A stretch of 64,000 nucleotides of DNA from Tribonema minus (Eukaryota > Sar > Xanthophyceae > Tribonematales > Tribonemataceae), in assembly GCA_017506865.1 (NCBI GenBank), contig JAFCMP010000445.1, forward strand, positions 496,001 to 560,000. The letters are read 5' to 3'. The position numbers and the translations under genes are program-made. The notes under the pieces are model-generated. The model did not search any database, was not told where the DNA came from, and saw only the letters and a program-made list of their open reading frames with translations. Positions 9,435-56,474 of the stretch are shown piece after piece (positions within the stretch are counted from its first letter, which is position 1; each line of letters starts with the position of its first letter).

Positions 9435-11227
9435 CAGCGACCGATGACCTGCCGCCGGATCGTGTGCCCTGCATGGTTTCCGAAGGGGTAGTGGTCATAG
9501 CGCCAGCAGGTGAAAAAGGGCAGGGAGCGTTTGCTGCGGTGCGCATAGCCTCGGGGACGTGGCTGGGGCCATACAGTGGGGAAGTGCTCAGCGAAGAGGA
9601 GCTGGACGAACGGTACCCCCCGGGCGTCAGGTCAGCGGGGTCATTGCACTGAAGTCTGAGGTGCCTTTGATGTGTACAGGAGGGGTGCTGAAGTTTCGTG
9701 TTGTTGATCATTCGGGTGTATGTCTTGTGGTTGAGTCGCGGGAGGGCGTCACTTGCGCTCGTTGCAGCTGGTGCTGGTGGCAGCGAGGGTTGTCATTCAA
9801 CACGCCTCAGGCACGCACAGTGTGCACGTCGCTGCACATCAGGATTAATCATTGCAACGCAGCTCGTGACCGATGTGGTGAAGTCCCTATGTTCGCGCTG
9901 CAGACCAGCTGCGTGGTGTGTGAAAGCTGTGCGCACCACACCGATGTATTGTACACCTCGCAAAACTTGACCCATCCCCCACTGCGTCTCGGTGCGCTGC
10001 GAGAGTCGGTCGAGAAACGTCTTTCAGGCGGGCGAGAGCGTGTACATCGACGCGCGTAATGTGGCCAAGCCGTGGTGGTGCACCCGCTTGCCTGCACCAC
10101 ACGGCTACAGCACTATTATGCTATCTCGGCAATTCTGCATGCACAACACCATGTAATGTGTATGTACACCTTGCGTTGCGGTGCGCTGTGGTGTGTGTTA
10201 TAGCAGATTGGATAACGTTTTTACGTCATGTACTCCTTGCATTTCGGCGTGCTGTGCGTGAGACCAGGTCGGAGTACATCTTCGAAGCCGCGACGGCGTG
10301 TACATTGTGACGGGGCAGCCTGACGCTGACGTTTGGCCAAGTCGTGGCTTGACTTTACCACACGCCTGCGGCGTCCGCACTCTGCGCTCTCGGGAAGCTG
10401 CGTACGCAACGCCAACGTCATGTACACCGTGCGCTTCGGTGCGCTGTGTGTTAGAGCAGGTCGAAGTACGTCTTGACGCCATGTACACCTTGCGCTTCGG
10501 CGTGCTGTGCGTGAGGGCAGGTTGGCGTACGTCTTAATGTCATGTACTCCTTGCTTTCGGTGCGCTGTGTGCTGGAGCAGGTCGGAGTACGTCTTTGAAG
10601 CCGGCGGCGGCGTGTACATTGACGCGCGCGACGCCGCGCTCTCGTCCTGGCACCGCTACATGAACCACTCGCGGCGCGGGTTCAACGTGCACGTGGGCGC
10701 CATCGTCGAGCCGCCTCCGTTCAGTGGTGAGCGGTGGCACCGTGTGTACTGTTAGTGTACTACTGTACTTTGCCAGTGTTGCCTGCATGTCGGCGTCATC
10801 GCCGCGCCGCCTTCGTCTTGCATTGAGCACACAAATAAACTTGATGCGTACCTCCACCCCCCCCTTCCCCCCTTTCAGCAGAATCATGCAACCTCATTGA
10901 AGAAGCATTCGCGTCTGGGCAACTAACTTTACGGTGGTACTGTTTGACTCGTGGCCAATCGCTGCAGCAGCGGCGACCATGGTTATTGGTGGAAGAAGGT
11001 TGTGGCTAACCATCCCATGTCACCTCTAGAGCTCCACGATCTTTTGATTCGTTTTCATTATGTTCTGCCCTCCCCCCCTCCCCCCTCCACCAGAACGCCC
11101 AATGCCACAAGTGCAGCTCCGGACCGTCGCCGCCATATCGCCGGGACAGGAGCTCCTGCTCAACTACGGCGACAGTTACTGGGACCCTGATGATGCGGTG
11201 ATGGACGACTTTGGAGCGGCTGGCTAA
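9435..11227 (+). CDS. SET-domain protein methyltransferase (N-terminus not found)
   Basis: Three exons join with consistent phases: about 9435-9630 (ends phase 2), 10581-10726 and 11094-11227 (TAA). The product contains the N-terminal SET block GQGAFAAVRIASGTWLGPYSG-E, the central SEYVFEAGG-VYIDARD and RYMNHS segments, and the C-terminal ISPGQELLLNYGDSYWD. This is the usual order of SET motifs, with the NHS and NYGDSY elements forming the S-adenosylmethionine and substrate pocket. SET enzymes methylate lysines of histones or other proteins. The usual NHSC reads NHSR here, and no post-SET cysteine cluster follows before the stop, so the substrate cannot be predicted. The acceptor at 9434 is my best choice; the start codon must lie in an upstream exon. 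Intron 2 carries five degraded copies of the exon 2 start. Confidence 0.87.
10005..10580 (+). repeat. Tandem copies of the SET exon 2 acceptor edge
   Basis: The exon start (GTCGGAGTACGTCTTTGAAG, with its upstream GCTGTGTGCTGGAGCAG) is echoed near 10007, 10200, 10270, 10455 and 10527. The 10270 copy keeps CCAG followed by GTCGGAGTAC and the downstream GCGTGTACATTG. The 10007 copy keeps GTGTACATCGACGCGCG. Copies are separated by a shared intron segment reading CTTGCGCTTCGGCGTGCTGTGCGTGAG. This is one case of the exon-edge duplication described in the findings. Confidence 0.8.
10925..11065. repeat. Family-B dispersed repeat, copy 4
   Basis: It runs from GGTACTGTTTGACTCGTGGC to ATCTTTTGATTCG in the last intron of the SET gene, ending just before the C-rich pyrimidine tract of the final acceptor. 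It is homologous to the copies at 2.2-3.3 kb and 27.9 kb. Confidence 0.75.
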
Positions 11228-12540
11228 ACCGCGACTGCAATGTTGAAGCACAGCAAATCCTGCAACAGCGCTCGGCTTGTCGGCTCGAAGTGGCACGCTC
11301 TTGCTGAGCGATGATGCGGCTGGACGCCGGTGTGCCCCAACGACATGCGGCGACGATACGCGCTTTCTGCTGAGCCGTGCTAACAAGGTTGCCATGCAGT
11401 GAAGGCAGAATGGAGCACGACTGCGCAGCGGCGCTTCCGGACGCGCGACATATGCTTCCGGCGCCAGAGCTCAAACTGCGGGCTCTGCGCACCACCGCCG
11501 TCAAGTCGCACTGCGCTCGGCCTGGAACCTTTGTGTGCGCATGGCGGTTGCCGAGGCGCATACACAGCAAGCGTCTTTGCATGTGCGCTAAACCGGCGAC
11601 AGCGCGTGCGCCGCACGCACACCACGCTAGGGGTTGTGCCTGCGACTTCAATGTTGACGCTCCCTCTGGTAGACGGGACGCGAAGGGCCAGGAGTGTTGC
11701 TGCGTGACCCTGGCGCGCACATGCCTTCATGCAGGGAGGGCTGACTCACTATTCCGGCGCGCGGTGGAAGGGTAGCTTACAGTCGTCACACTCATACAAC
11801 GCCGTCACTACACACAAGGAGGTGCTCACAACTGGCGTACAGTGCTGGCTTTCAACGACTTAGCATGGTGGATTGGTAATGACCTGCCGCCTACACAGAC
11901 TTGACAATGATGCTTCCCCAAGCAACTGCAAGTTACCTTGCTCAAGCACCAGCTGTAATGAACGCGCCGCAGGCCTGTAGCGCCTCTCATCTGCATGGTA
12001 TTGTTGTCTGTTCTACTGGCTGCACATGCCTCCAGTCATCATGCCAGTGACCTAGAGAAAAACAATGGCAGTATCATACTGCTTATGATAAGTACTGCTC
12101 AGCGATATGAGCTGCATTTCGCCACTCTATGATCACTTTCATATTCAGAGGCAAGCCTGATGGCAGACAAAGAGCCTTGTTCATTTTGAAGCCAGCAAAG
12201 GACACTGAGCCAGATGCAACTGCAAGTCGGCTCACTCGTTGTGAGTAAAAAAAAGTGCCTGTAGTGTGGCCCGCCCGTTCCCACGCACAGACCCGACACA
12301 ACGCGACAGGAAGTGAACGAATGCATAGATGTTGACCGGGCAGCCATTGGTCCTTGCATGGCATGAGCAGAACAGCAACACAGATCACATGCCACAAAAG
12401 CGAAATGAGAGCACAACAGTACAAAACAGCACAAAGAAACACAGAAATTCGCACAGGATGGCGGGCACTCGTATGCGCGTTGAGCGGGCGTGGGCGGCCT
12501 ACTCAGACTGCGAGTCGGGACTCGCGACTTGGCGCGTGAC
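11228..12540. other. Convergent intergenic region
   Basis: This lies between the stop codons of the SET gene (plus) and the ubiquitin gene (minus). Open frames around 11377-11775 are open in three frames at once and look like GC-rich noise. No RNA gene or repeat was recognised apart from TTCAA-type motifs. Confidence 0.5.
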
Positions 12541-15685
<3,145 letters not shown>

Positions 15686-15808: not shown

Positions 15809-15858
<50 letters not shown>

Positions 15859-16149: not shown

Positions 16150-19100
16150 ATGGGCTCGGCAGCAGGAGAGCTGCTGCAGTCCGCAGGGGACGTCCTGCTA
16201 GCCAAGCTGCAGGATCCCGCCACCTACACCGCACTAGGCGCCGTCGTCGCAGTTCTAGTGGCTCTCTGGATGCTAGTGTTCTCCACGGGCATGTACCTTC
16301 AAGAGATCAAGTCCATGGGCTACGTGACCATGTTGAAGGCGTACACCTTCACCCTCACGTGGATGACGCTCAGCTTCCTGGGCTCCCTGCCAGCGATACC
16401 GCTGCTGCTCATCGGCCAGCGCAAGCGCGCGCGGGAGCTCACCCACTACAACGGCGGCGTCATCGCCCGCACCCTGCAGCGCATCTGCTTCTACCCCAGC
16501 GTCATCACGGGCATGGAAAACCTGCCACCGCCTGAGACCGCATGCGTATACGTGGCGAACCACCAGAGCACCGTGGACATTGCGGTGTTCTTTGCGATAC
16601 GGCGGAACTACGCCTGGGTCAGCAAGGCGAGCGTGTTCTTAGTGCCGGGGGTGGGGCTGCTGATGAGGCTGGCGGGGTATGTGAGCCTGCAGCGGGGAAG
16701 CAAGGAGAGCGGAAAGAAGATGATGGAGGACTGCAGGTCAGTCAAGGTTAAGCCTATGTGTAGGGGTATAGTAGGGTCAGGGTTAGGTTAGGGTTAGGAC
16801 TAGGGTTAGGGTTAGTACCTTATCACATGTCTAGCCGCTGCGCGCATGCTTTCATGGTGCAGCTGGACCTTCTATGTAGCGACAGCCATGATGATGTTTT
16901 GAAGGTATCCATTCATGCCGTGGCAGGGAGGGCTGCAGAGCAGCATGCACCTCTCATAGCTCTAGCTGACCGCACCTGGTTCTGTGTGCATTAGGAACTT
17001 TGATGCAACGATGATGACAAAGAGTCGTGCAGTGTCAGGCATCGCAATGCAATCGTACGATCACCACGCTGGCACTGGGTTGGCCTCTTCATCGCAGTGC
17101 ACGTGCTGGCGTGGTGCATGATTTGACCTTGCCAACAATGTCAAGTCTGCACAGCGGCGGTCATGTCAGCAGAGCAGTACATAGTTGGATGACTGCGCGG
17201 GTCAGAAACGCGTTCAAAGGCGTCATGACCGCTGCTCAAAAGCAACGAGCTCCGCCTGCAGAGCTCTTCAGCGGTCTAAACGCATGACAGCGATGCCGCC
17301 ATAGCCTCATCCCCCGCTCATGAAGTTCGCCTCAGCCACAGACTTGAAGTGCGCATGAACCATAGCCGTACCAACCGTCCTTGTGAACTTCAACTGTAGT
17401 GTGAATACGCCTTAAACGGAGAACGGGGCGCATCGTGCGCTCCGCCCCTGTGTTGGTCCCTCAAGCCCCCACATGCAGCAGGTAGGTATGTATATATATA
17501 CACAACTGGAGCGTCACTAGGTTCCTAGGGAGCTCCTTTGGTAGCCCCGTGTTATGGACAGGGGCCCGCATTGAACCTGAACAGCAGCTCACATGCGCAT
17601 TGCACATGTACTTGCGTTTGCCATTGCCGCGATCTCCACAAGCCGTCAGCGCGGTTAATTGAGGACTGCTGCACCTGCGGCACGTATTCAGACGCCTTTA
17701 CACAGTTATGCATGGTGCAAATGGCGGAATGCGCTGCGCTTTGCACAGCAGTTGCGCGTTGCTTGTCATATCTGCACAACGCTACTGCTGAGGGTCTGAG
17801 CTGCGCACAGACTAGTACCGACCAAACGTATCTTAGTCCAGCATTTCAAGCAACTCACAGCATTGCGGGACAGAGCTGTGACTGTCGCGGGTTGCTTTTG
17901 CGCGAGTGCTGACGACCCTGGACCTTGCTTTTGAAGTTTGCTTGCAGACGCCTACTGCCATACATACCATGCTGCCATGACGATGCATGTTGAAGTTTGC
18001 ATAGCGGGGCGTCATAGTGATGCTTGAAGACTGCAGGCCCCCCCACTGCCGACCGGTTCTTAGGAAGGACTGCCTGAAGACATGGCGGCGTCGTCATATT
18101 CAATGCATGTTGAAGTATGCACAGCGGAGCGTCACAGTGGTGCAGAAGCCCAGGAAGTAACTCATGTCAATTCCATGCGTCTTCAAGTGCACGCGTCACA
18201 GTGATGCAGAAGCCTGCCCCCCCCCCCCCTTCCCCTGCCCATCGGTTCTCAGGAAGGACCCTGGAGAAAGGATGGAGCGTTGTCATATTCAATGAGGTGT
18301 TGAAGTATGCACAGCAGAGCGTCACAACCATTGGAGATGCAAAGGAAGGAGCGCCGTCATCTTCTGTGCATGTCGAAGTACGCCCACAGTGATGCAGAAG
18401 CATGCTTACCCCCCCATTGCCAACCTATTCTCAGGAAGGACTGCCTGGAGAAGGGGTGGAGCGTCGTCATATTCCCCCAGGGCACGCGGCGGCGGCACAA
18501 GATCCTGGACTTCAAAATGGGGGCGTTCAAGCTGGCGCAGGAGGCGCGCGTGCCAATAGTGCCTGTCACCATCGAGTTGCCTGAAAAGATGTACGGTATC
18601 GGGTGCAAGGTGAGGTTGTGTCATGTGTATACTTGAAGCTATCAGCATGCATGCTTCCAAGTATGCCTATGTGCCTAATCGTGCCTGTCGCTTTGACCCG
18701 CAGCGGCACGTTTGGACGCAGGGCGCTGTGCCATCGCGTGCGCATAGGGCAGCGGCGACTACGATGACATGTGTTTGCGACTGTACCTTGGGGCTAGAAT
18801 TAGGGTTAGGGGTTGCGTCAGTACATCCCAATGCCCGACCTTCAAGCATACACATATACATGCATACTACCCCCCCCCCCCCCCCCCCCTGTCTGCAGTA
18901 CCTCTGTGTCAGTGCGCTTTCCAACCGCCCGAACCTTGAGCCCATGCACTCACATGCATACATACTGTGGTCCCCCGTTGCGCCCTCCAGTTCCCCTGCC
19001 GCCTGAGCATTGCTGCAAGTCTAGCAGCACTGCCCGCCCACGTACCGCGCTGCTGTGAGACCGCAGCAGCAGCTCTCTCTTTGAACGCCCCCTGCCATTG

Positions 19101-19736
19101 CCTTCACCCTCGAGCATTGTCCCACAGCACCCTAACAGTTTGAGGCTGACTTCAAGCGCGCGTCGCTTTCGTCTCCTTCGTGCATGCCATAGTGCGCTGC
19201 TTAGGGTTAGGGTTAGGGATAGGCGGTGTCAGTCTCTATCTCCTAGGGCGCAGCCATCTTCACATTCATCATTGTTGTTTAGCCGCGCATACATACGCAC
19301 CCCTCAGGACCGCTCATGCACCATCCCTCACCAGCCCATTCACCCCCGACAACCCCGTTGTTCAATGACAGCCAGACGTCATCAGTCAGTCGTGTAATGG
19401 TGCCTGCATTGTGGGCCTGCTCCCCTGGCTCGAGGAAGAGAACAATCAGCCTCCATTTTCTAGGGCGCCGCCATCCTCACATTCGTGATTGTCGTTTTGC
19501 CGCGCAAACCTACGTCTCAGGACCGCCCGCGCCTCATCATCCACAAGCCCATAGCGCCCGACGACCCGCTCTTCCAAGACCGCGACGCGCTGCTCGCGCA
19601 CACCTTCGGCACCATAGTCGGCGCCCTCAGCTACGGCCCGGCGATGCTGCAGCGGCAGCGCGCGGACGCGGCGGCGGCGGCGCGACTCACGGCGGCGGCG
19701 GCGGAAGTTGCGCCGGATGCTAAGAAGGAGGCGTAG
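16150..19736 (+). CDS. 1-acyl-sn-glycerol-3-phosphate acyltransferase (PlsC/LPAAT)
   Basis: Exons 16150-16736, 18435-18609 and 19521-19736 (TAG) join in phases 2 and 0 to give 325 residues. Two hydrophobic segments (about 28-47 and 70-87) precede the acyltransferase core. The catalytic NHQSTVD motif (His138, Asp143) is present, as is FPQGTRR (about 209-215), matching the conserved FPEGTR block with Gln for Glu. VPIVPVTIE follows. The enzyme adds the second acyl chain to lysophosphatidic acid, giving phosphatidic acid for glycerolipid synthesis, probably in the endoplasmic reticulum or plastid envelope. The ATG lies at the start of the first long open frame after the divergent promoter. The exon 2-3 junction (GCK to DRPRLIIHKPI) is a little short against the family, so a small extra exon in 18610-19520 is possible. 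Both introns carry tandem copies of exon edges. Confidence 0.92.
16766..16817. repeat. Interstitial telomere-like tract
   Basis: A run of about six TTAGGG-like units with small deviations (TAGGGTCAGGGTTAGG, GGACTAGGGTTAGGG) lies just inside intron 1 of the acyltransferase, 30 bases after the donor. Confidence 0.85.
17975..18474 (+). repeat. Tandem copies of the acyltransferase exon 2 acceptor edge
   Basis: Three units (about 17980-18100, 18101-18297 and 18298-18474) each run from a GTTGAAGTATGCACAGC / GCGTCACAGTG block through a C-rich tract and TTCT(C/T)AG GAAGGAC to GTCGTCATATTC. The last unit holds the true acceptor (AG at 18433-18434) and first 40 coding bases. The two upstream units keep an acceptor AG but break the reading frame. 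Confidence 0.85.
18793..18812. repeat. Interstitial TTAGGG motif
   Basis: Two TTAGGG-like units lie in intron 2 of the acyltransferase. Confidence 0.75.
18870..18889. repeat. Poly(C) run
   Basis: A 20-base run of C lies in intron 2 of the acyltransferase, followed by TGTCTGCAG. It could act as the pyrimidine tract of an unused or alternative acceptor. Confidence 0.85.
19200..19540 (+). repeat. Duplicated acceptor edge of acyltransferase exon 3
   Basis: The stretch CTAGGGCGC(A/C)GCCATC(T/C)TCACATTC through CTCAG GACCGC occurs at about 19243-19330 and again at 19460-19530, an offset of 217 bases. The second holds the true acceptor (19519-19520). Homology continues into coding sequence (CCCATAGCGCCCGACGACCC against CCCATTCACCCCCGACAACC). 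A TTAGGG tract sits at 19201-19219, at the left end of the first copy. Confidence 0.8.
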
Positions 19737-23030: not shown

Positions 23031-26000
23031 CCGCGGCGAGCTCCTGGCGCACGCTCTCCGGCACCGCCTCCGCGGGCTTGCGGCTCACGCGCTTGATGTA
23101 CTCGTACGTCGTCACCACGAGCACCGACGCGGGCGCGACGGAGATCATGCGCGGGCCGAGCCCCTTCATGAGCGCGCGCGCGCCCGCCGCGGCCCACAGC
23201 GCGCGCGCCTCGGAGAGCATCGTCGCGCCGGCGGCGGCGGCGCCGCGGCGCACTTGCAGGCGCGTGCGGATCACGTCCAGGGGGTTGGTCAGCACGACCT
23301 GGGGGGGGGGGGGCATCGGGGCATTGGCGGGGGGGCGGGGGGGGGGGAGGCGTCAGAAATGGCGGGCATTGCTGCGCTGTGTAATGCGGTCAGTCAGCAC
23401 GGCCTGGGGGGGGGGGAGGTACAGGCAACGGCCAGATGTGCGTGCAGGGGGGGGGGGCAAACACAGCAAGTGGCGCTACGCTGTGGAATGGGGTTCATCG
23501 CAGACATCGGCCGAAGGGGGGGGGGGGGAGGGTGGGGGGGCTGTGTGAGCGACGGGCGGTGTTGCGATGCGGTATGCTGCCGCCACTGCTGCGCTGCTGC
23601 GCCATGATCATAAGCAAGCAACATGTACCCGTTTGTGTGCATGCATGCGTGAAGGCATCCGGGCCGTGCCAGCAAGCTTATGTCCACTGGCGCATGGAGC
23701 TCTGAGGGTACGCGTGCATGTCACAGCGGCGCATGCATGCCACAATGAGGCCACCATTGTGGCATGACTGCTCGTGGCCCTGGCAATTCAAGGTGTGCGG
23801 CACATGGATGCTCAGAAGGGTAGGTATGTATGCTTACCGTTGTCGCGCCGGCGAGGTACCCCGCGGTCGCCTGCACCAGTATCTGCCGCGCCTCCTCAGA
23901 GAGGTTCAGCGGCAGCGCGTCTATCCTGGCCGCCAGTGGCTCCTGGTGAAGCACAAGACAAGACTTTGTGAAGAAGCTGCTTTTGAGGATTGCTTGGAAT
24001 GACAACACGGGAAGACAAGAGCATGTGCAATGTCAAAATGAGAACAGCTGATACGCCTGAGGCCTGCTGCGTTCCAAATTTGAGCGTGTAACTCCCTGCT
24101 TTGCTCTTTGCGCCGCCACCAACCCCGTGCAGCACGATAACCTGCGTGTGGTGACAGGCTGAGCACCCAATCGCCAGCTAGCTGCCGCTGAGGCGCCCAC
24201 TGCAGGAGAAGTTCAAGTTGGCGCCCAGCCGCTCTCCTATTGTGCAACTTCAACACAGTCTGACCATCAGCTGAGTCAGTGTAATCAGGAATGCAGGCCT
24301 ATGAGCTGCAGAGGTCGAAGGCCACATTATCAAGAAGAGAGAATGTGGCCGTGCATGACGATATTGATATATGTACAGAAGTACGAGTATGTGTTACCAT
24401 GTAGAGTCCAAGGGCACTCCACCACGCCGCGGACATGGTGTGCAAACTGCATCACAGCCAGGCCTAGCAGACTAGTGCACAAGCACATGCTCAGTAGTAC
24501 TCAAACTCAATTGTGCTCGTGACAGGCACACCTTGTAGACAATGCACAAATGTATATTCAGCAGTATGTGTGGCTCTATATACACATGCATAGTTTGTAG
24601 CGTCCGCAGACGCTCCAGAACACCGCCGACATGGGGTGCAAACTGTGTCACATGCTGATCTTGTAGACAAGGGCAGACACATATGCTCAACAGCACTCGG
24701 GCTCAATAGTGCTCGTGACAGGCACACTTTGTACACAATGCACACACGTACGCTCAACAGTACGGCTCTATATTAGCATACTACTAAATACTTTAGTAGC
24801 GTCCGTCGGCGCTCCAAAACGCCGCAGATGAAGGCTCAGACTGCATCACCATTGCCGCAACACCCCTGTAAAAGCAGTACTTATGACTCTCTGAATGTAT
24901 ATGCACACATTGTAGAGGCCATAGGCGCTCAGACACGGGCGCAAGCTGCATCACCGCCGCCGCTTTTTTTTTATACAGCATAGCATCAGTATGCCCAGTA
25001 GTAGCTGTGACAACACAGGTACATACATACCTTGTAGAGACCAAGGCGCTCCACCACGCCGCGGACGTGGGCGCAAACTGCATGACTGCCACCGCAATAC
25101 ATTATAGCATCAGTATGCGCATTGCTCAGTAGTTGTGACACTACAAGTACATACATACCTTGTAGAGCCCATAGGCGCTCCACCAGGCTGCAGACGTGGG
25201 CGCGAACTGCATCATAATTGGCGTAAACCTCCCTGATGTGAAGAACTTCATAATAGCATGAGTATATATACTTGCAGTGCTTTGAAGTGTACACACCTTG
25301 TAGAGCCCATAGGCGCTCCACCAAGCCGCAGATGTGGGCGCAAACTGCATCACAATCAGGCCTTGTACACAAGTGCACAAACATGTGCTCACAAGTACTC
25401 AAGCTCAATGGTGCTCGTGACAGGTACACCTGGTAGACAATTGCACATGTGTATATTCAACAGTATTTGTGACTCTATACATACATACCTTGTAGAGCCC
25501 ATAGGCGCTCCACCAGGCCGCAGATGTGGGCGCAAACTGCATCACCGCCGCCGCAAACCCCCTGTAAAAACCCCTCACGCCGCCCGTCGCGTACACCTCC
25601 CGCGCTATCGCCGCAGCCGTCGTGGGGCCGCCCTCTCCGCCCGCGATTCCCGCCACCATTCTGTGCCATATATGGGGGGAGAGAGAAAGGGGGGGGGGGG
25701 GGCACCAGCGCATCAGGCGGCCATGTCTTCACCGTATGTAAACAACAGTTGAAAGATGACCTTGAACGTGTGCCTTCGTGCCTGTTGGAGGTCGAGCTGG
25801 CGAGCTTGTAGTCGGAGTATTGTGTAGGTATGTAGGTGACGTCACACTGCAAATTCGGCGCCTAGCGCACATGGGACAGCAGCGGCGAGCGTGTACGCGG
25901 CGCAAGAAGGGTTAGGGGTACGGCTAACCCTGACCCTAACCCAAACTAAGTCGTAAATGCCCACGGCAGCGCAGTCGTTGAGCGCTGAGGCCGTTGCTGA

Positions 26001-29000
26001 GCGCTGCGATAGCCTGCAGCACAGTGCTCAGCAATGGCCTGCATTTGATATGTGCAAGGGGCAGGGCAGGTGTGACCTGGGCTGCGTCCCTGTCGTGCAC
26101 AAGGGTGCACAGAGAGAGGAGTATGTCACAGTGACCGCCGGCTCGGACTGTACGCCCAAATGTTGTCGATACAACGCATCTCGGTCCTGTACGATACTAG
26201 GTACCGAGATGCGTTGTATCGACAATACCTGGGCGCACAGGACTGTGCAGCCCCAGGTCCATGCAAAGACACCACTGCTGCGTGCAAGGTGCATTCAGCA
26301 CATCACGACCGGCAATATCTTTGAAGGTTGCAATATGCTTGCAGCAGTTCATGGTGTACACATTACTATAACTTAGTAGCTGCCTACATCCAGTGCATTT
26401 GAAAGATGCAAACTGTCCTGACAGCAGCTTGTCTAGGCATGTCCAAGTGACTCAGACTTGGCGACGGCACGAGTCAAGCTTCCGGAAAGAGTCTCTGAAA
26501 GTTGACACTGCTCGCAGCGGTCGATGGTGTGCACATCAATACCTACCTACCCACATCCAGGGTTAGGGTTAATGGGCCGAGGGTTAGCGTTAAACTTAGT
26601 CGGAGCGACGCAGACTGTGCTGACGACAGCTTGATTCATCAGTGGTACCTACGCATATGACTCTGAACACATTCACGTGAAATGTAAAGCTAGGGTTAAG
26701 GTTTGAGATTAGGTCGAAGCTAATGCTAGCTGCGGAAGCCTTGACTGATGCGCTCCGTCACCTGCTGCCGACATCCCTGGGGCTTGCCGCAGCGACCAAC
26801 CATGCGCACCACAAAATGTGCTTCGCTCAGGTACCGTAGCGCAGGATGCAAACGTCTGGTGCCCACTGTGAGGCCTGACTTGCATAGATGACCAATGACT
26901 CATGACTCTGACTCACAGTCGCTGGCTGACGACGTCAATGGGGACGGTGGCCACCTGCATGGCCACACTGGCACCGGCGCCAGCCACCTGTCGCGCACAG
27001 CGAACATCAACGCACAACAATGAGGTCAGTCGCCATACAAGTCGCCGTACAATCTGCTCTTGCTATACATCTTTGAACCAGGGCTCGCACGGAGTGCTTC
27101 TGTACTGCGCACCTGGGATCAGCGCGCTGCCTAACCCTAAGCCTTGTCCAAATCGTCACCCTCACCCTATGCTGCATCGCATCGGCGGCAGCCTGAATGC
27201 TCTGTATCTTGGCTCCTAGCGGCGCATGATTTGCGAGCTCTCAATTGCGGCTAAAACATGCCTCTACAGCAGGCCCAAAGCACGACAGACTTTGCTGTAT
27301 GCTGCAGACAACATGACCGGGTGCAAGAGCAACACTTTTAAGGTAATGGGTGTCGTAATCTGACAGTTACACAATGGCAGTTACTCATGCGTGCGTCTCA
27401 CCATGTCGCGCACCCGGGCTGCGCGCCGGGCGCACAGTGAGCAACTGACAGTTTCGCATTGACACTACATTTAGAGCTACACTAACTTGCGTCTCACCAT
27501 GCTGCGCACCACCTCCCCCTGCTGCGCAAGCGATGTGTACAGCGAGGCGCTGACAGTTACACATTGGCAGTTACATTGTGTGTCACGCATGTTGCGCACC
27601 ACCTCCCCATGCCGCATGCGAAGCGATGTGTACAGTGTGGCATTGACAGTTACACATTGGCAGTTACACTCGTACGTGCGTCTCACCATGTTGCGCACCA
27701 CCTCCCCCTGCTGCGCGCCCATGGACATGTACAGCGAGGGGCTGCTCTCCGGCCCCAAGTAGCGCCGCAGCAGCTCGTAGATGGTGAAGTAGGCCTGCGC
27801 AAAGGAAAGAGAAGCAGGCTTGTCAGGAAAGATATATACTTGTATATTGATTTGCCGCAGCAGCGGCGACCACGGTTATTGATGGAAGGCATTCAATTTG
27901 ACGGCTAACCACACTTTGTCACCTACAGCTCTACGATCTTTTGATTCAAAGGTACCGCCGCTAGGTGGTGGAGTAGGCTTGCACGAAATTGGCGAGCTGG
28001 TGCACGCCGTTCCTGAGACGCATGGATCGAAGATGAATTCGCTGGGCGTTCACGACGAAGTGATTAGGAAGTCACTCAGCGTTCACGACTGAGCCACGAG
28101 CAAGCAAAAATACTGGTATTGGTGCACCGGTCAAGGCCAGACGTGATGCTGATGGTTTGCAAAAATTAGCGTGCTCACACAGCAGCAGACTAATATTCCA
28201 CTCCATCAGCTGAAGGTACCGCAAGTACCGGGCAAACACACCGCTAGCGGAGACAGCCCCTGCGCTAGACCCATGGGTCTTATAGCACCAGGGGGTCACT
28301 GCAATGTCAAGCCCCCCTACATGGTAAAAGACCCGGGGTCGTTTGCCACATGATGCTATTGTCGCAGCCTATATCCATGTCACCACAATAATGCCAAAGT
28401 ACCTTAAGTGACGTATGCTGATGGGTGCGCATGTTATGTCACGGGGTTAAAAGCACATGCTGCCCGGAAATACAGACATGTCATATTATTGTTGTGTACA
28501 AACAGTTCCAGGGGCACTAGAAGCCTAAGTAACCAAACCCTGACGCTTCTTCAAGTTCATTGTTGAAGTTTTGCTGACCGTGGAGCCAACTTCACAATGA
28601 TATTACAGGTTGTAGCTAAGTCGTAGCCTTTGCTTGACTTGTCAGGCATGCGCCCGAGAGGGCCATCCATTCTGTAACCACGAAAATGATGCCTGCGGCT
28701 AAGTAGCGCTGGTGACCCTCACGACAGACATGTCAATTCCTTCGAGAACCAAAGAGCAGCACTGCGGGCCATGCCTTCAGTGCTTTCTGCAGGGACGCAG
28801 TTGGTAAACAGCCCGTGCATGGCAAACAGCCCGGGTGTTTTGCCAGGCGCAGATTGCCAGCACGCACATGTGCCAGGCTGAAAGCCCCCCCCTCTTGGTA
28901 AACGCCCCCTGCGCTGTGAACGACCCCTGGGGCTACGGCACCAGAGCACTTTGCCAGCCAACACCCGGGGGTAGTTTACCCGGTACTTTACGGTGCCTGT

Positions 29001-45100: not shown

Positions 45101-48100
45101 GAGCCTCAACTTCTCACTTCAAGAGGCTCATGCGACAGCACGCAGCTGCGCAGGTGGACTCAAGCTGAAGGCGTCATTACGCCCTGATATCAGGCACCCA
45201 CAACAACTGCCATGTCGCCGCCAACGCACCTCAACATCTGCGGCAGCAAGCTGAGCCCGCAGCGCCGCCACCTGCGCGTCGTGCCGCGCCGCCGCCGCGG
45301 CGAGCTGCTCCCGCTGCACGCGAATCTCTGCCGTCAGCGCCGCGACGCGAGAGTCTGCGGCCTTCGCAGCAGCGCTCAGCTCTGTCACCTCAGTGCTCAG
45401 CGCTGCCGCCTGCTGGTCGCGCTCCGCCACTGTCGAGTTGGCGGCTGTTACCTCAGCGCTCAATGCTGTAGCATCAGTGCTCAGCTCTGCGATTTCAGCG
45501 CGTAGCAATGCCAGCTGCTGGTCGTGCTGCGCCACCGCCGAGTTGGCGGCTGTTACCGCAGCGCTCAACGCTGTAGCTTCAGCGCTCAGCACAGCTATCT
45601 CCGCGGTCAGCGCTGCTGTCTGCTTGTCGCGCTCGGCCACCGCCAAGTTGGCAGCGGCCACGGCAGTGTTCAGCTCTGCGACTTGTTGTTCGCGCTCCGC
45701 TGCCGTCGAGTTGGCAGCTGCCAAGGCGGCGCTTGACGCTGCCACCTCAGTGCTCAATGCTTCTGCCTCATTGCTCAGCTCTGACACCTGCCGGTCGCGC
45801 TCGGCCACCGTCAAGTTGCCAGCGGCCACGGCAGTGTTCAGCTGTGCTACTTGCTGTTCGCGCCGCGCCATCGCCGAGTTGGCAGCTGTTACCGCAGCGT
45901 TCGACGCTGTAGCAGCAGTGCTCAGCTGTGCGATCTCAGCGCGGAGCGACGCCAACTGCCGATCGTGCTCCGCCACCGTCTCCGCCAGCTGCTGCCGCGC
46001 TGCAGACTGCAACCGATGACGCAGTACGAAAGCGATGATGCTGAAAATTGCTTCTCAACCTCAGCATGCATCGCATGCATTAAGCACGGCATGCATGAAG
46101 CGCTGCAGCGACGATGACTGACGTCAGCCCTGAGGGCTAGGGTTAGGGTCAAAAGCGCGGCGACAGCAGCTCTCACTGGCAGCGCTGTAATCTCAGCGCT
46201 CGACGTTGCTACAAGCGGGCCTCGCTCTGCAGTCACCGCTGTGCCGCAGTCGTTCACGAAGCAGCTGCAAACACACAGCGCGATCGTCAACTCGCTGCGC
46301 CTCAGCACGCCTGGGGCGCTGCAGCGGCGATGAACAGTTTATGAGCACTGTCACAGCGGCGCTGCCTGGTACAGTAGCGCTGAGCACTGCTATTCCCCAG
46401 TCGCGCTGTGCCACCGTTTATATTCCGAAACGTTGAAAAGAAATCACGCATACACACTGCGTCCCCTGCTCACCTCCGCCGCCGCTGCCGCTGCCAGCTG
46501 ACTTTCCAGCGCCGCCACATCTGTGGCGTGCCGCGAGTCACCGACAGAGTCGTTGGCCAGGTCTTCAACTGAGTCACGACCCGAGCCATTGTCCGAGTCG
46601 TCAGTGCTCTCGGCGCGCGGCGCGCGTTCTTGGAGAACCGCGCCGTTCTGTTGCAGCGCCGCGACCTGCGCGTGCAGCAGCAGCAGTGGGGATGCGCTGT
46701 CAGACACATGGTATACTTAGCAGAAGGGCAGACACCTGTTATGCTTGAGTGCCAACAGATGCTATCGATAGGCGATGCTTTGTGACCACGCAACGAGACA
46801 GGCGGTTGAAGAAACACATGCATACATACGGTGTGCGCGTAGTACCATGCGGTTGACGTTGGCAAGCTCGGCGTCCGCCGGGCCTCTGCGCGTATTGTGT
46901 GACATACAGTGCTCAGCTCCGCATACAGCTACGGTAAGCTGTTTTGAAGTGGATTGTACACCCAAAGCCCAAGATCTTCCCATCCAAAGACGTGAACACG
47001 AAGGCATCATGCTCACCTGAGCAGTCGTCTCCGCCAGCAGCCGAGGCACAATTTTGTTCGAGCCACAAGCACTCCTCGCCTTCAGCAACAATTGGCGCAG
47101 AGAGCGTTGTCAGAGGGTTAAAGCGCACCTGAGCAGTTGCCTCCGCCAGCTGCGCCTCGAGCGCTGCCACCTGCTGGCCGCGCCGCAGCGCCAGCCGCGT
47201 CAGCGCCTCGAGCTCCGCCGCCGCCGCCTCCGCCGCTGCAGCATCGCTCGTCGCTGTGGCAGCAGCGCTCGGCGCTGCTGCAGCATCAGCGCTCACCGCC
47301 ACTGCAGCCTCAGTGCTTGCTGCCACTTCAGCATCAGCGGTCGTTGCCGCCGAGGGATCGGCCGTCGCTGCTGCAGCATCGCTCGTCACCGTGGCAGCAG
47401 CGCTTGGCGCAGCAACATTGCTCGTCGTTGCCGGCGCAACATCGCTCAGCATTGCTGCCGCAGCACCGCTTGACATTGCCGCTGCCGCAGCGTTTGTCGT
47501 CACAGCGGCATCAGCGCCCGTCGCCGCCGCGGAATCGACATCGCTCGATGTCGCCGCCGCAGCACCGCTCGTCGCCGCCGCAGCATCACGCGCTGCCGCC
47601 GCCGCGGCGTCGATCGTCACTGCCGCAGCGTCGCTTAATGTTGCAGCTGCAGCACTGCTCGTTGCTGCCGCATCATCGCTCAGCAGCACTGCAGCAGCGC
47701 ACGTCCCCGTTGCGGCATCGCGCGTCGGCGGTGACGCAGCGCCCTCAGCGGCCGCGGCGAGCCTCGTTTGGAGCGTTGCCACTTGCGTGTCGTGCTCGAG
47801 CGCGAGCTCCTGGAACCGCTGCCGCTGTGCATCGGCCTGCGCACGACAGGGCACATAGGTGCGTTTGGCAGGCGTCAGGCAGGCAGGTATGTATGTATGC
47901 AGCGTCATGGCTACGCTTGAAACAGTCAGGCAGGGGGGGAGGTTGTATCTTCTGCAAGTGTCAGGGCAGGCTTGAATGCACGGTGTTGATTGCTGAGGGG
48001 GGGCATCGTCATCGGCGGTCGGGCGTGCGCTGCAGGCGTGCGCGGCAGAGGCATTGCGAACAACAGGTATGTATGTATGTACATTGCTGATGCACGTGTG

Positions 48101-51100
48101 CTCCATGTGGGACGCAGGCGTCCGCAGTAGCCCTAACCCTAGCCCTTGCCCTGACCCTGCCGCCGCAGCCTGCTCGCGACGCTGCACTTCTGATTTTTCA
48201 GGGCACGTAGGCATGTACCGGTGCGCTTGCCAGCATGCACAGCAGCGTACAGAAGAGGAACAACGCGGTGCGTGCAGGCCTGCGGCTCCCGGCGCTCCTG
48301 GGCCCGTGTGTGTGCAGCAACTTCTAGGGTTAGGGTGAGGATCAGGGTGAACGCTGTCGGTGTGCATGGATGCTGGGCTGCGTCGCGGCGCCAGCGTCCG
48401 AGCTCTTGGGGTGCAGCGCAGATAACCCTAGGGTTGTGCTAGTTCGGTTGAAGGGTGGGGCTAACGTTGGCAAACTCAGGCACAGTAGCGCACACTGGAC
48501 ATTCTGCCTCTCTGCAAGCCGGCGCCACGGGCTGGCGGAAGTACCAAATTGATAATTCCAATTGGAATACAGAGCGAGGATTAATAAACAGTACCATACT
48601 GGCAGTATTGCCTCTCACTTGCCAGAGTGCGACGGGTGCAGGCACCGCACGCACTACACGGGGCAGCTGCCGCAACAAGCTTCAAGCACTGCGTTATCAG
48701 CGGTACTGCCTATCACGTGCAAGCATGTGATATGCTGCCTTCTCTTGCGAGCACGCTTCGCTTGCAAGCACGAGAGCAGGCGCCAATGCCGCACACATGC
48801 CTGAGCAGCTACCGCAACCAGCTTCCAGAACTGCCATAGTAACAGCGCTGCCTATTGCCTGCGAGCACACACCGCTTTCACATCAGAATGGCGCCGGTGC
48901 CACACACACTACCTGGGCAACTGCGGCATCAAGTTGACACTGCAGATCTGCGGCGCGCGTTGCCGCGGTGGATCCAACGTCGTTTAGCTGGCGCTGCGCG
49001 GCCACAAGCTTGCTGGAGATGGCGCCGGCGTGAGCTTCGCTTGCGCCAAGGCGTGCTTTGAGGGCAGCGATCTGCTCCTCCCGCTGCGCCAGCGCGTGCG
49101 ACGCTTCCTCCCCCTGCAGTGCGGCGACAGAGACGGTATAGGTATGTCCTGATGTCAGTTGGCATGCCACGCACCGCCTACTTCCCATGGTTAAGCTGCT
49201 TACATGCACGAGGCAGGCGCGACTTCCCGTCCATAGCACAGCACATCAATTGTACAGCTATGATTCATAGCCCCTGGTGACCATCGTGCCCTGGGCAGCT
49301 GGCTCACGTGCGCCGCCGCCGCTGCCGCCGCCGCCGCTGCCTCCGCCGTCGCTGCCGCTGCCGCCGTCGCTGTCGCGCGCTCCTCCGCCTCCGCGCACCG
49401 CTGCAGCGCGCGCTGCTGCTGCGCGCCGGCGGCGGCAGCGGCAGCGGCCTCCAGCGCGGCGATCTGCGCGGCGCGCTGCAGGCACAGCCGCGCCAGGCGC
49501 TCGTGCTCGGCGCCGCTGTCGCGTGCAGTGGCGGCGGCGGCAGCAGCGACGGCGTCGCGCTGCGCTTCCGTGGCAGCGGCGGCGGCAGCTGCGGCAGCGG
49601 CGACGGCTGTGAGCGCTGCCACGTCGTCGGCGTGCCGCGCGGCGAGGGTGCAGGCCTGCTCCGCCAGCGCGGCTGACAGCGCCTGCAGCATGGAAGCATT
49701 TTCAACATGACCAGAAGTGCGGTGTGAAACCTGCATCATCACCTTTGTTAAGGTGCGATTCAATGCAACTGGACGTTAGCGGCCAGCCCCGGGTGGGCTG
49801 TGGCCCAGCCCTGGCGCTGACATCAGCAAGGGGGCGAAATATTGCATTCTCCGGTGTGGCTGCGTGACTGCCAGAGGATGGTTTTGCACGACGCACGTCG
49901 TCATCAACTGTACGCAATCGATTGAGTCATTCATGGTGAAGCAATGTGATACAAACGATGACAGTGCCGCTGCTGCCGCTGTCTGGGCCAGAGCGCGACG
50001 TGATTGTCATGCGATCGCTCCGTGCGCGTGCCGCGCAGCGCATGTACATATACGAGTCACTAGCAGAGGATGCGGCGTCGCGCTGCACTGATGAGTACCT
50101 TGAGATATATAAAACTTCAAAAAGCTTTTTTTGTCATCCACCAGAAGCTGCTTTCAGGCCTCCCACCGCAGCAGCAGCAGCCACCACCAACTCTACTACA
50201 ATTTGCGCCTGCAGCAATGCCTGCGTCATCAACCCACCTGCGTCGCCGCCTCCGCTGCCGCCTTCGCCTCCGCCGCCGCCTCCGCTGCTGCTGCCGCCAG
50301 CTCCTCCGCGTGACGCGACGACACATTGCTCAGCTGCGCCCTACACGCGGCGAGCTCGCCTTCCAGCGCGGCGACGCGCGCGCGCGCAGCGTCCGCACCC
50401 TCCTGCAGAACTTCAACTTGCCGGTCGCGCCGCAGCGCCGCGGCGCCGCGCTGCTGCCGCTGCGCAGCAGACTCGGCGGCGGCGCTGGCAGCGCGCGCGT
50501 CGCGCTCCGATAGCGCGAATCGCAGCTGCTGCAGCTGCTGCGCGTGCTGCGCAGACGCTTCCGCCGTGCGCGCCTCCGCACAAGCCAGGTCTTGGCGGAG
50601 CGTCTCCACTTCAACTTTCAGCTCTGCCGCCGCCGCGCGCGCCAGCCGCGCCTCATGCTCTGCCACCGCTGCCGCGCTCTCCGCGCGCGCAAGCGCTGCG
50701 GCGAGATCAGCCTGCAGCGCCGCGACTATCATATCGCGCTCTGCGGCCAGCGCGTTGAGCTGCTCCCGCTGTGCAGCAAGCTCTGCGGCGGCGTCAGCGG
50801 CATGCTCATCTCGCTCCGCTAGCGCAAGCCGCAGCTGTTCCAGCCGCTGCGCGTGCTCGACAGACGCCGCCGCCTCCGCCGCGCGTGCCGCGGCGGCGGC
50901 CTCCTCCAGTTCTGCACGGATCGTCTCCGCTTCAGCTGCCGCCGCGCGCGCCGCCTGCACCTCCTGCGCCATCGCTGTTGCCACTGCCGCCGCGCTTTCC
51001 CCACGCGCCTGCGCAGCAGCGAGGTCAGCCTGCAGCGCCGCGACCTGCGCATGGCGCTCCGCCGCCAGCGCGCCAAGCTGCTCTTGCTGCGCAGCAAGCT

Positions 51101-53191
51101 CGGCAGCGGCGGTAACGGCCCGCTCATCTCGCTCCGCTAGCGCGAGCCGCAGCTCCTCCAGCCGCTGCGCGTGCTCGGCGGACGCCGCTTCCGCCGCGCG
51201 CGCGCTGGCGGAGGCCAGTTCCAATTCAGTGCGGAGCGTCTCCGCTTCAACTTCAAGCTCTGCTGCAGACGCGCGCGCCGCCTGCACTTCCTGCGCCGCC
51301 GCCGTCGCCGCCGCCGTTGCGCTCTCTGCGTGCGCGTGTGCTGCGCCAAGGTCGGCGTGCAGCGCCGCGACGTGCGCATTGCGTTTTGTGGCCAGCGCAC
51401 CAAGCTGCTCCCGCTGCGCCGCAAGCTCAGCGGCAGCGCTAGCGGCCCGGTCATCTCGCTCGGCCAGCGCGAGCCGCAGCTCCTCCAGCTGTTGCGCGTG
51501 CTCGGCGGGCGCCGCCGCCTCGGCTGCGCCTGCCGCGGCGGCGGTCGCTTCCAGTTCCGCACGGAGCGTCTCCACTTCAACTTCCAGCGCCGCCGCTGAG
51601 CTCTCTGCGCACGCCCGCGCCGCCGCGAGGTCGCCCTGCAGCGCTGCCGCCGCCTGTGCGTCACGTTGCGCGGCGAGCGCTGCCGCATCGCGCTCCGTCG
51701 CCGCCGCCTCCCGAGCGTCGTCGCGCGCCGCCAGTAGCAGCGCTATTAGCTGCTGACGTTCCGCGGCGTGCGCCTCCGCCGCCGCCGCCGCTGCTGCCGC
51801 CGCCGCCGCCGCAGTGTGCGCGCCGCCGTCCTCAGCCAGACGCTGCTGCTGCTGCTGAGCACTGACGTCCGCCGCCAGCGCCTCCGCGCGCGCCTCCGCC
51901 GCAGCCAGCTGCCGCTGCAACACCGCCACGTCATCATCCCTGGCGGCCAGCTGCGCCGCCGCGTTGCGCGTCTGCCGCTGCAGCGCCGCCGCCGCCGCGA
52001 CGACCGCCGCCTCTGCCGCCGCAAGCTGCGCGCGCAGCGGAGCCGCCGCCTTGGCTTCGTGCAGCGCGCCGCCGCCGCCATCCACCTGCTGATGAGCGCT
52101 GCTGCCTAGTTGCAGCGCTGCGACCAGCATCTGCAGCTGCGCCAGCTCTGGCGGTGTTTCTGCGTCGCCACCGGCGTCCGCTGTTGCCGGTGGCAGGGGC
52201 GCGCCTGCCGCTGCTGCTGCAGCAGCGCTGAGCTCCCGCAGCAGCTGCGCATTGTCGCCGCGCAGGCGCGCCAGCTCCTCCTGCAACGCACGCAGCCCCA
52301 CCAGGAGCTGGTGGTCCTGACGCTGATCGCGGCCGTCGCAACTCCCGCTGAGCGCTGCTGCAGATGACGCCTCGCGCGGCGGCGACCCGCCCAAGGTGGA
52401 CGGCGCAAGCTCTGCTGCCGCCATGCCGCCACCGCTGCCGCCAACGTGGAGCGCTACTGCATGTGCTGCTGCGGGATTCTGCACGACAAACTGCCCAGGT
52501 GCAGCGCGTGGCACTGCCGCCGCCGCCTGCGCCGCAGCAGCACCGCGCGCTGGCGGCTCTCGCGCACGCGCCGACGCCTGCGCTGCTGCGCTGCCGCGAT
52601 GCGCCGCCGTCGCGTCCGCGCCCGCGTCAGCCGGCTCCGGTTGCTGAGCGCCGAGCTGCAGCAGCGCCGCGCGCAGCGCAGCACGCGTGCCCCTGTCCTC
52701 CTCCGCCTGCGCCGCCAGCGCCGCGGCGTCTGCCTCGAGGCGCGTCAGCTCGCGCGCGAGGTGGATGTTGTCGCCCGCGAGCGTGTCGTTCTCGCGCGCT
52801 AGCGCCGCCACCTCCTTCCGCAGGTGCCGCTCCACATGCTTCAGCGCGCGTAGCTCCTCCGCCGCTGCCGCCGCCGCGCCGACGGCGCTGCTCCCGCTGC
52901 CGCCATCGCCGTCGCTGCTGCCGCGATGTGCGCGCAGCTCTGCCGACTCGTCAGCGCGGGGCGCAGCGCTTTCAGGCGCTGCTGTGCCAATGAGCGGTGC
53001 TGCGGCGTTGCGCTGCGCACCATCACCAAGGCGTGCTGCGAGCGCGGCCTTCTCACGTGCCAGCTGCTGCACGCCCGCCACCTGGCGCTCCAGGCGGCGC
53101 AGCTGCGCGCGCAGCCGCTCGTTCTGCGTGCGCAGGCTCTGCTCTGCCGCAGCGCCGCCGTCATCGCCGCCGCCGCCGCCGCCGCCGCCGT

Positions 53192-53226
<35 letters not shown>

Positions 53227-55912
53227 CTGCCGCCGCCGCCGCTGCCGCCGCCGCCGCTGTCGCCGCCATCACCGTCGTCCGCGCGGGCGGCTCTGCAATG
53301 CGCGCACGCATTGCGGCGCGATCTACTCGTCTCAGCAGCGAGGGACTGGGCTGAGCGCCGCAGCGCGACGTTCTCCGCGCGCAGCGCCGCCGCCTTGGCA
53401 AACGCCGCCGCCAGCGCCGCGGCGGCGTCGCAGCACAGCGGCGGCGGCGCCGCCGCGGTCGCGCTGGACGTGCCGTCAGGCTGCTGCCTGCGCGTCGCCG
53501 GCTCCTCTGGTGCTGCTGCTGCCTCGCAAAGCTGCTGAGCACTGGGGAATTCCACGGATCTCTCCGGCCCCGTTCCGTCAGGGCACTGTTCCGAGGAGCG
53601 CTCCCCGAGCGCCAGCTCCTTCTGGCGCGGCTGCTCATTTGCGCATTGCAGCTGCTGCGCCAGCTCCCTGTTCTGAGCGGCGAGAATCTCGATGCGTGGC
53701 AGCATATCATCTGCTGAGGGCTGTGCGCCGGTGGCTGCTGCGGCTGCTGCCGCCGCTGCCGCCGCTGCCGCTGCGCCGCCGCCGCCGCCACGCTCTCGCG
53801 CCGGCCCCGCCGCTGCTGCTGCCGCTGCCGCCGCTGCCGGGCGCTGCGGCGCCTGCTCCTGCTGCAGCGTCTGCTCCTGCTGCAGTGACTTGAGGCGCTT
53901 GTGCACGTGGGACAGCGCCCTCGCCAGCTCTTCCTGCGCCGCGTCACGAATGAGTGTGCAGTGGCAGAGGGGACGAGGTCGGCTCAAGTTCAAACTTGAG
54001 GTTGCGTGGCGGGTCAGGGCGTGCCACCCTTTTGCGTGTTCGGCAGCAGTGGCGGTCCTCCATCAAACGCGCGCTGCAATGCCACCCGTCTGACATGTAT
54101 TTACAATGAAGAGCACCAGCGCATGCACATGCACGCACTTTCTCATTTGTGAAGAGAAAAGTGGGCACCAAGTTGAAGCTTAAAGTCCACTTCGTCGCGT
54201 GTGACGCACCATGTCCTGCACCACCGCGCCTCCTTCCTGCGACAGAACCGCAACGTCACGCCGCCCTGAGTGTTGAAGTGAAAGCTGCACTTCCACGTGT
54301 GGCGCACCATGCCCTGCAGCGCCGCGCTCTGCGTTCGACAGCAGCGCGCCATTGCGCCGCGCTCTGCGTTCGACAGCAGCGCGCCATTGCGCCGCGCAGC
54401 CGCTAGCGCTGTGCCCGCTTCCACGTCGTGCCGCACCAGCAAGTTGAAGTTCAACGTGCACTTCCACGTGTGACGCACCTTGCCCTGCAGCGCCGCGCCC
54501 CTCTCTTGCGACAGCAGCGCAGCATCCCGCCGCGCCAGCAAGTTGAAGTTCAAGGTGCACCAGCAAATTGAGGTTCAAGGTGCACTTGCGCGTGTGACGC
54601 ACCTCGCCCTGCAGCGCCGCGCCCCTGTCTTGCAACGGGACCGCGACATCACGCCGCACCCGCATATTGAAGCTCAAGGCGCACCAGCAAGTTGAAGTTC
54701 AAGGCCTACTTTCGTGAGTGACGCACCTTGCCCTGCAGCGCCGCGCCTCTCTCGTGCGACAGCAGCGCAGCGTCACGTTGCGCCGTCTCCAGCGCCGCCT
54801 CCGCCTTAATGGCGCGCTTCTGGAAGGAGCGCGCCAGCGCCTCGCTCCGCACGCACGCGTCCGCCAGGTTGGCCACCAGAGCCTGCACTGACAGTTACGT
54901 ATTTGTTGTTTCTGAGATTCTCGCTCAGGGCGTGAAACAGCCCAGATGGCTGATGACAAGCTTGTTGCCGCTTGTATTTGTGGCAAGGTGGGAGTGTCTC
55001 ATTAACGGTCACTTCTGAACAATATCACAGCGGTCGCGTGCATAACCCTACCGAATGATGTATTCGTGACTTGCATCCTGTGCCGCTGCGGCGTGCCGCG
55101 CGATGCACGTTACACCACAAACGGCACCCACGCCAAGTGAGCACTTGCAGCAGCCGCCTCTGCAGCACAATTGTGCGCGTGCCAAACCCTAAACCTACCC
55201 CGAAGCCCAACCCTAACCCCACCGCCCTGACCCTCACATACTATTAGTTATCGCGCATGCACGTGCATCCGCGCCGGCGGCGGCGGCACTGCCACCTCGT
55301 GCTGCCGCGCGACAGGCGCGCCCCCTGCGGCGGCCGCGCTGAACGCTGCCGGCATGAGCCTCGGCATGCTAGTCTGGTGGTGGTTGGGGGCCTGCTTCTG
55401 GCACGCGGCGTGCGCGCGCTCACCTCGTGCAGCAGCAGCGCGTGCCCTGCCTTCGCCCTGACCTGAACGCTAGCCCTAGCCCTTACAAAAGTGCGCACGC
55501 ATGCGCGCATCTGCGCCTCCCTCGGCGCCCGCTCTCACCTCGTGTTGCATGTGCGTGCGCGCCAGCTCTGCCTCCAGCCGCGCGTTCTCATCGAGCACTG
55601 CTGCAAGCTCCACCTCCGCCAGCGGCGCCAGCAGCTCGCCGCCGCCGCCGCGCCCCCCGCCGCCCGCGTGCTCCGGGCTGCTGCCGCCGCCGCCGCCCCC
55701 GCCGCCGCCGCGCGCCGCTGCCGCCGCCGCCGCCGCCAGCAGCGCGTTCTCGCGCGCGAGCCGCGCGTTGGCAGCGCTCAGCTCCGCGTTCTCGCCCTGC
55801 GCGCGCTTGAGCGCGGCGAGCGCACCGGCGTTCACCCGCTGCAGCGCCGCCGCGAGCGCCTGCATCTGCGCAAACTCGCCGGCGCCGCTGCTGCCGCCGC
55901 CGCCGCTGCCGC

Positions 55913-55943
<31 letters not shown>

Positions 55944-56009
55944 GCTGCCGCCAGCACCGTCTGCTTTTTCGCTGCCCGTGCTACAGTCGCCCCTGCCTGC
56001 GGCGACATT

Positions 56010-56050
<41 letters not shown>

Positions 56051-56474: not shown

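Follow-up and report, generated by a model that had tools for sequence, protein, structure and literature searches.

Exon-edge arrays in the window

The window, the whole stretch of 64,000 nucleotides analysed here, comes from the assembly of Tribonema minus, class Xanthophyceae (158.18 Mb, 554 contigs), and contains a SET gene, an acyltransferase gene, an SLC25A44-like carrier gene, a ubiquitin-S27a gene and one or more giant coiled-coil genes. The original prediction, made from the letters of the window, held that short pieces of coding exon, together with their splice site and the adjoining intron, are tandemly repeated outward into the introns of these genes, and that the pattern recurs throughout the genome. 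Our analysis partly confirms it: the exon-edge arrays are real and genome-wide, and several of the listed cases fail.

On self-comparison, most of the places named in the prediction show local arrays. The SET gene, whose exon model was derived solely from open frames and splice signals, carries an acceptor-side array at exon 2 (9989–10628, plus strand). In self-comparison this array spans the edge, as predicted, with copies of the real exon start at 10581 located about 313–319 and 568–572 nt upstream, together with 61-nt sub-repeats. A weak donor-side repeat at the same exon (10688–10816, plus strand; exon end at 10726), absent from the earlier list, is a 33-nt match of 82% at an offset of 96 that ends short of the junction. 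In the acyltransferase gene, self-comparison likewise bears out the predicted acceptor-side copies, which span the edges of exon 2 (17983–18474, plus strand; exon start at 18435, copies at −182 and −371) and exon 3 (19229–19567, plus strand; exon start at 19521, offset 217).

The carrier gene features donor-side arrays at exon 2 (27360–27744, minus strand; exon end at 27687) and exon 4 (24395–25569, minus strand; exon end at 25489), the latter with seven copies that are 5–31% diverged from the exon; a further array had been claimed at exon 6, where none is listed. The nearest exon-4 copy lies at 25297–25353 (minus strand), and the extra 16 residues of the annotated protein P0001, discussed below, correspond to its final 48 nt. 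For the coiled-coil gene, three arrays had been claimed, of which one stands: a donor-side array at 54166–54784 (minus strand), read by eye, has four copies, each with a GTGCGYCAC-like donor at its end, and the exon edge at 54727 inferred from the open frame. No exon edge was demonstrated at 36835–37078 or at 45366–45980, and the latter, which lies inside an open frame, is probably a coding repeat. This interval is one of the tracts of tandem repeats found, apart from the exon-edge arrays, in long open reading frames belonging to the giant coiled-coil gene or genes, the others being 34746–36113 and 50426–51596. The case claimed at exon 4 of the S27a gene does not hold: the repeat in intron 4 (12980–13407, minus strand) is intronic, and its share of the exon-4 edge is no more than about 9 nt.

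Among the 12 valid window introns (SET 2, acyltransferase 2, carrier 5, S27a 3), seven arrays were found, six of which reach across an edge for 20 nt or more, with the weak SET exon 2 donor match included; 14 rows labelled S27a_14600 (intron length 50,513), for which the motif was not found, were dropped from this count. The exon models of the carrier and acyltransferase genes join into open proteins. The carrier model is identical to the NCBI T. minus protein P0001 apart from one inserted 16-residue piece, and the acyltransferase model matches the T. minus protein P0241 with 100% identity over 78% of the query; P0241 starts later and shares the modelled splice junctions.

Other repeats are present in the window. 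Arrays at offsets of 183 and 268 nt occur at 99–773, in a stretch taken as non-genic, which indicates that local duplication is not confined to introns. At 58089–58560, a unit of about 194 nt is present twice with 98% identity and resembles the last part of a coding frame, stop codon included, together with the sequence downstream of it; this duplication is possibly the same process at the 3′ end of a gene. Short telomere-like runs of TTAGGG/CCCTAA reside inside introns at 16772–16815 and at about 26500–26600.

Sampling of introns across the genome

Genes for the genome-wide sample were picked by family and not by arrays, using CCT/Cpn60 (PF00118) and kinesin (PF00225) at 40 loci. Profile matches used were 56/56 for CCT and 92/132 for kinesin, with the other 40 kinesin matches left out. 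The protein profile search itself showed decoys, for instance in a CCT gene on contig C51, where one part of the profile was matched three times in tandem. Six profile matches that were decoys themselves were dropped (L009, L016, L025 and L029, and two in L012). The 40 chains contained 102 adjacent exon pairs, 26 of which lay beyond the profile-gap limit. Of the 76 pairs used, 69 (from 32 loci) could be joined at GT and AG with the reading frame continuing, and seven had no acceptable junction; the median length of the 69 sampled introns is 657 nt. The overall scope is two gene families, 69 introns and one assembly.

Junctions were assigned in two rounds, the first leaving 11 exon pairs without an acceptable junction (65 introns) and the second seven (69 introns). 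The 65-intron set is the basis of the 48-array count, the detection simulation, the first pseudo-edge test and the mismatch counts for 91 copies, while the 69-intron set is the basis of the edge counts, the gradient from near to deep intron, the age order, the ratio R and the retention of GT and AG. Copy statistics additionally include seven or nine introns of the window, a set selected by the finding itself; frequency counts exclude window introns. Edge queries were 50 nt long and were judged by one fixed score threshold.

The first exon of L012 and the last exon of L029, both strong positives, are outside the counts because of the junction and profile filters, and an L036 intron at 5250 with six copies was included in the first round, failed the second and is absent from later counts. 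In L012, a CCT locus, three tandem copies of one exon's start (101–860) are each placed behind an AG acceptor, with a longest decoy match of 37 residues; the upstream exon was not located, and the array is outside the counts. L016 (6200–6760, minus strand) carries a CCT-theta decoy of about 110 nt that differs from the real exon by a few percent and is absent from the annotated T. minus protein P0121. The CCT-theta model matches P0121 with 100% identity over 100% of the query and has 6 introns.

Frequency and unit structure of the copies

Copies of an exon edge were found in the adjoining intron at 35/138 edges (donor 20/69, acceptor 15/69), touching 28 of the 69 introns and 15 of the 32 kinesin and CCT/Cpn60 genes. 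In contrast, control segments located 50–100 nt inside the exon had a copy in the intron in 8/137 cases, and segments deeper in the exon in 2/334; control comparisons with introns of other loci, for which every third intron was used, gave 1/3016. The predicted genome-wide recurrence is therefore borne out in genes chosen by family, and the comparison of edges with exon interiors, which the original prediction had set as its own test, comes out in its favour. Shuffled intron tiles contained no local repeats (0/45). Local-repeat coverage was 0.231 of the 45 intron tiles, compared with 0.098 of 14 window tiles taken as non-genic, a small sample.

Across 38 edge arrays, the units are arranged head-to-tail with a median length of 150 nt (IQR 122–172), and the exon part has a median of 57 nt (IQR 42–65) and a maximum of 135. 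It occupies less than half of the unit in 31/38 of these arrays; in the first-round set this holds for 24/33, against 0.42 simulated with uniform breakpoints. The shortness of the exon part could result from selection against exon-like copies or from a fixed breakpoint. Within an array, the exon breakpoint shows a median deviation of 2.5 nt and the spacing varies more, at 9.5 nt; between arrays, the breakpoint has a standard deviation of 16.3. Unit lengths are distributed over the three classes modulo 3 as 11, 12 and 15.

Preference for exon edges

Any tandem duplication across a splice junction puts its extra copy on the intron side. The claim that copies are always found towards the intron, and that the intact exon always terminates the array, thus describes the pattern correctly, but the pattern is forced by geometry and is no evidence for a special process.

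Edges were compared with positions inside introns in two versions, both of which are reported. A first, coarser pseudo-edge test, counted by position and before correction for detection, gave 28/123 for real edges (0.228) and 431/2779 for pseudo-edges (0.155); together with the intron profile, it pointed to a weak or absent preference for edges when differences in detection are taken into account. In the second version, a copy on the given side was present at 0.144 of intron positions (409/2846) when counted by position, and at 0.104 (260/2495) when each array was counted once, compared with 0.25 (33/132) at real edges. Weighting each array once changed the picture given by the first test.

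Detection differs between the two classes of site, with simulated values of 0.835 and 0.871 for edge duplications and 0.653 for internal ones. Part of the edge preference comes from conserved exons keeping copies recognisable for longer, and for the same reason uniform placement predicts that 0.433 of arrays span an edge once this bias is simulated. The observed share in the first-round set is 33/48, with 15/48 spanning no edge, and a formula-based uniform null gives an expectation of 18.6 of 48.

The bias from exon conservation is removed when only intron sequence is considered. Intron-only 50-mers were duplicated at a frequency of 0.159 in the 60 nt next to an edge and of 0.111, 0.087 and 0.072 further in, corresponding to a near-to-deep ratio of 2.0 (gene-bootstrap CI 1.29–3.29). 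This gradient is carried by the 31 introns of at least 700 nt (0.250, 0.161, 0.081 and 0.064 from edge to deep), whereas it is absent or reversed in the 38 introns below 700 nt (0.078, 0.066, 0.097 and 0.139). A moderate excess at edges is therefore probable.

Source and age of the copies

Most copies seem to derive from the real exon edge and not from one another, with older copies situated further in. Divergence from the exon rises with distance, with a mean rho of 0.68 over the 15 arrays that have a defined value (of 16 with at least three copies); none of the values is negative and two are zero. Such a rise alone is expected in any array that keeps its order. In only 4/47 neighbouring pairs is the far copy nearer in sequence to the near copy than to the exon. 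The ratio R, defined as the copy-to-copy distance divided by the sum of both distances to the exon at codon positions 1–2, is 0.905 (interval 0.87–0.95; 24 arrays, 55 pairs), and derived states comprise 204 private and 27 shared changes. For the intron parts, alignable in 29/56 pairs, the distances are 0.165 between real and near, 0.182 between real and far, and 0.213 between near and far sequences; the near–far distance is smaller than the real–far distance in 9 pairs and larger in 20. How the copies relate to one another and to the exon supports the earlier claim that the edge itself is re-copied.

Three models of copy birth were scanned with 12 settings each. Births from the edge only gave, at the best settings with fitting divergence, R of 0.91–0.92 with an age order of 0.74–0.84; other R values for this model were 0.97 in an earlier version and 0.91–0.96 at fitting divergence. 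Births from any copy gave R of 0.43–0.62 with rho of 0.32–0.53 at fitting divergence and reached R of 0.75–0.91 only when rho was at most 0.17. A homology-anchored exchange model gave R of 0.74 and, at fitting divergence, 0.86 with rho of 0.28 or 0.92 with rho of 0.05. Exon-source births come closest to R, divergence and age order taken together. A one-off burst of copies was also considered and rejected, since copies within one array differ in age and burst-like settings lose age order.

Decay of the copies

The copies evolve neutrally. Given a constrained exon and unconstrained copies, one branch changes at codon positions 1–2 and two branches change at position 3 and in the intron. Exon-to-copy mismatches at positions 1, 2 and 3 are 127/1482, 108/1488 and 233/1487 (91 copies from 65 sampled and 9 window introns), and the corresponding divergences in the 69-intron set are 0.107, 0.084 and 0.157. 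Copy-to-copy divergence, in contrast, is nearly equal at the three positions (0.173, 0.160 and 0.196). Intron parts are alignable in 71/91 copies, with a divergence of 0.197 compared with 0.101 in the exon part, and 20/91 copies have no clear intron-part homology. Exon parts are 0–32% diverged and contain gaps in 31/91 copies. Splice dinucleotides are retained in 82/100 copies (GT in 43/55 donor copies, AG in 39/45 acceptor copies), close to the 0.82 expected for two sites at about 0.1 divergence. With nearly equal copy-to-copy divergence across codon positions, this rate of GT/AG loss and no frame bias in unit length, no coding use and no selection on frame or for removal of decoys is visible.

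Discussion

The best explanation for the arrays, and on balance a probable one, is that introns grow neutrally from copies seeded at their exon edges, by slippage with the youngest copy. The first copy would arise by a rare tandem duplication across a splice junction. Selection would keep the real exon intact, so that the real edge would remain the best-matched partner of its youngest copy, and the pair may then go through repeated slippage, template switching or unequal exchange. New copies would land beside the real edge and older ones would be pushed into the intron, while the outermost, real site would mostly still be chosen by the spliceosome. The mechanism is unproven, and our best guess is slippage that pairs the conserved edge with the youngest of its copies. 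The R and rho of the exchange model are off the observed values, and the slippage step as modelled is therefore a poorer fit than plain re-copying from the edge. Chimaeric copies should have their shared changes concentrated toward the exon-distal end, but only a weak trend of this kind is seen (mean 0.61 compared with 0.54 of the exon part, p = 0.09). The 20/91 copies that have no clear intron-part homology and the lack of an edge gradient in short introns also speak against this explanation. The interpretation offered in the original prediction is partly supported, including its proposal that the arrays lengthen introns and seed decoy splice sites.

Tandem duplication may instead occur uniformly anywhere in introns, with the edge pattern reflecting geometry and the longer detectability of conserved-exon copies. 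Intron-side placement is forced by geometry, internal arrays exist (15/48 spanning no edge), introns below 700 nt lack the gradient, and the first pseudo-edge test (0.155 compared with 0.228) and the intron profile are compatible with no preference; the by-position rate of 0.144 compared with 0.25 at edges, taken together with simulated detection of 0.65 compared with about 0.85, points in the same direction. The uniform account nevertheless appears rather unlikely, given an intron rate of 0.104 once collapsed per array, a 2.0-fold duplication of near-edge over deep intron-only 50-mers (CI 1.29–3.29), 33/48 edge-spanning arrays where 0.433 is expected, and any-copy births that never gave the observed R of 0.905 and rho of 0.68 together. 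We assign a similarly low likelihood to edges acting as dedicated intron generators, at which a boundary-linked process (chromatin, transcription or splicing-coupled) would repeatedly copy about 57 coding and about 90 intronic bases beside the edge; the long introns of this lineage would then be stratified records, ignored by the spliceosome. More doubtful still is a hot spot at the boundary itself, where duplications would recur independently of homology to earlier copies, for example after breakage linked to nucleosomes, R-loops or splicing. Such a hot spot would fit copies that resemble separate draws from the edge (R 0.905, compared with 0.97, or 0.91–0.96, for exon-only births), an exon breakpoint near 57 nt (IQR 42–65) with a median unit of 150 nt, and a repeat coverage of 0.231 in 45 intron tiles compared with 0.098 in the small sample of 14 tiles taken as non-genic. 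However, near-constant breakpoints within an array are explained more simply by inherited homology, and internal arrays exist.

Two further accounts are far less probable. The extra edges might be functional decoys, kept for alternative splicing or stronger splicing, and P0001 includes 16 residues matching a decoy. However, coding and splice positions of the copies decay at neutral rates, unit lengths have no frame preference, gaps in the exon part are common and no decoy sequence is present in P0121 or P0241; functional decoys, which we regard as highly improbable, were rejected on the basis of codon-position and splice-site decay. An assembly artefact is scarcely credible: although the arrays are known from one assembly only, the copies carry private substitutions and indels, are 0–32% diverged in the exon part and exhibit a codon-position signature which an artefact would not produce.

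For neutral growth seeded at exon edges, annotated proteins provide a view of how the decoys are treated. No decoy sequence from the modelled introns is present in the annotated P0121 and P0241. P0001 features one extra annotated exon, whose 16 residues are encoded by a carrier decoy and which enters at an AG within the copied coding sequence. The nearest and second exon-4 copies (offsets 192 and 330) both encode these residues, so the annotated exon could be either. Perhaps it reflects a gene predictor mistaking a decoy for an exon, as gene predictors can do.

Intron lengthening without transposons is poorly understood. In T. minus, the copies are recognisable, can be ordered by age and have a nearly fixed source, so that the rates, order and direction of intron growth become measurable. 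The arrays also constitute a natural experiment on splice-site choice, with near-identical decoy donors and acceptors beside the real site and no removal by selection visible.

Comparison with known systems

Among the matches listed in a search of the open-access literature (titles and starts of abstracts), there is no report of recurrent exon-edge arrays. Several known systems share individual features with them. Introner elements represent one sequence family common to many introns, whereas in T. minus only 1/3016 comparisons of exon edges with introns of other loci gave similar sequence, as did 5/2782 for intron 50-mers. Mutually exclusive or tandem duplicated exons copy a whole exon with both splice sites and are coding-constrained; the T. 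minus copies, in contrast, have an exon part of median 57 nt and maximum 135 and are neutral. Ordinary intronic minisatellite or satellite arrays also consist of head-to-tail copies, but those copies multiply from each other, unlike the T. minus arrays (R 0.905, rho 0.68; 4/47 pairs).

More distant cases, as outlined in the respective reports, include the intronic tandem repeats of Daphnia pulex, which are likewise head-to-tail, with units of 1–50 bp; the density of those longer than 8 bp is much lower in introns than elsewhere in D. pulex (PMC3152781). In T. minus, the units measure about 150 nt and contain coding edges, and the copies are apparently drawn from the exon and not from one another. 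In Drosophila, also a more distant case, intron sliding and the tandem duplication of coding sequence that contains a proto-splice site are described (PMC2891723), and short local duplication likewise reshapes exon–intron structure. The outline of that work describes new intron positions arising from exonic duplications, whereas none is implied in P0121 or P0241.

The nearest case is a potato gene in which, according to the outline of the report, a single tandem duplication crossing an intron–exon boundary created a new spliced intron (PMC4974935). As in T. minus, the duplication crosses the boundary and carries splice signals. The potato case, as outlined there, involves one gene, one duplicate and a new intron, whereas the T. 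minus copies stay within an existing intron according to the annotation, with up to seven copies per edge and at a quarter of the sampled edges.
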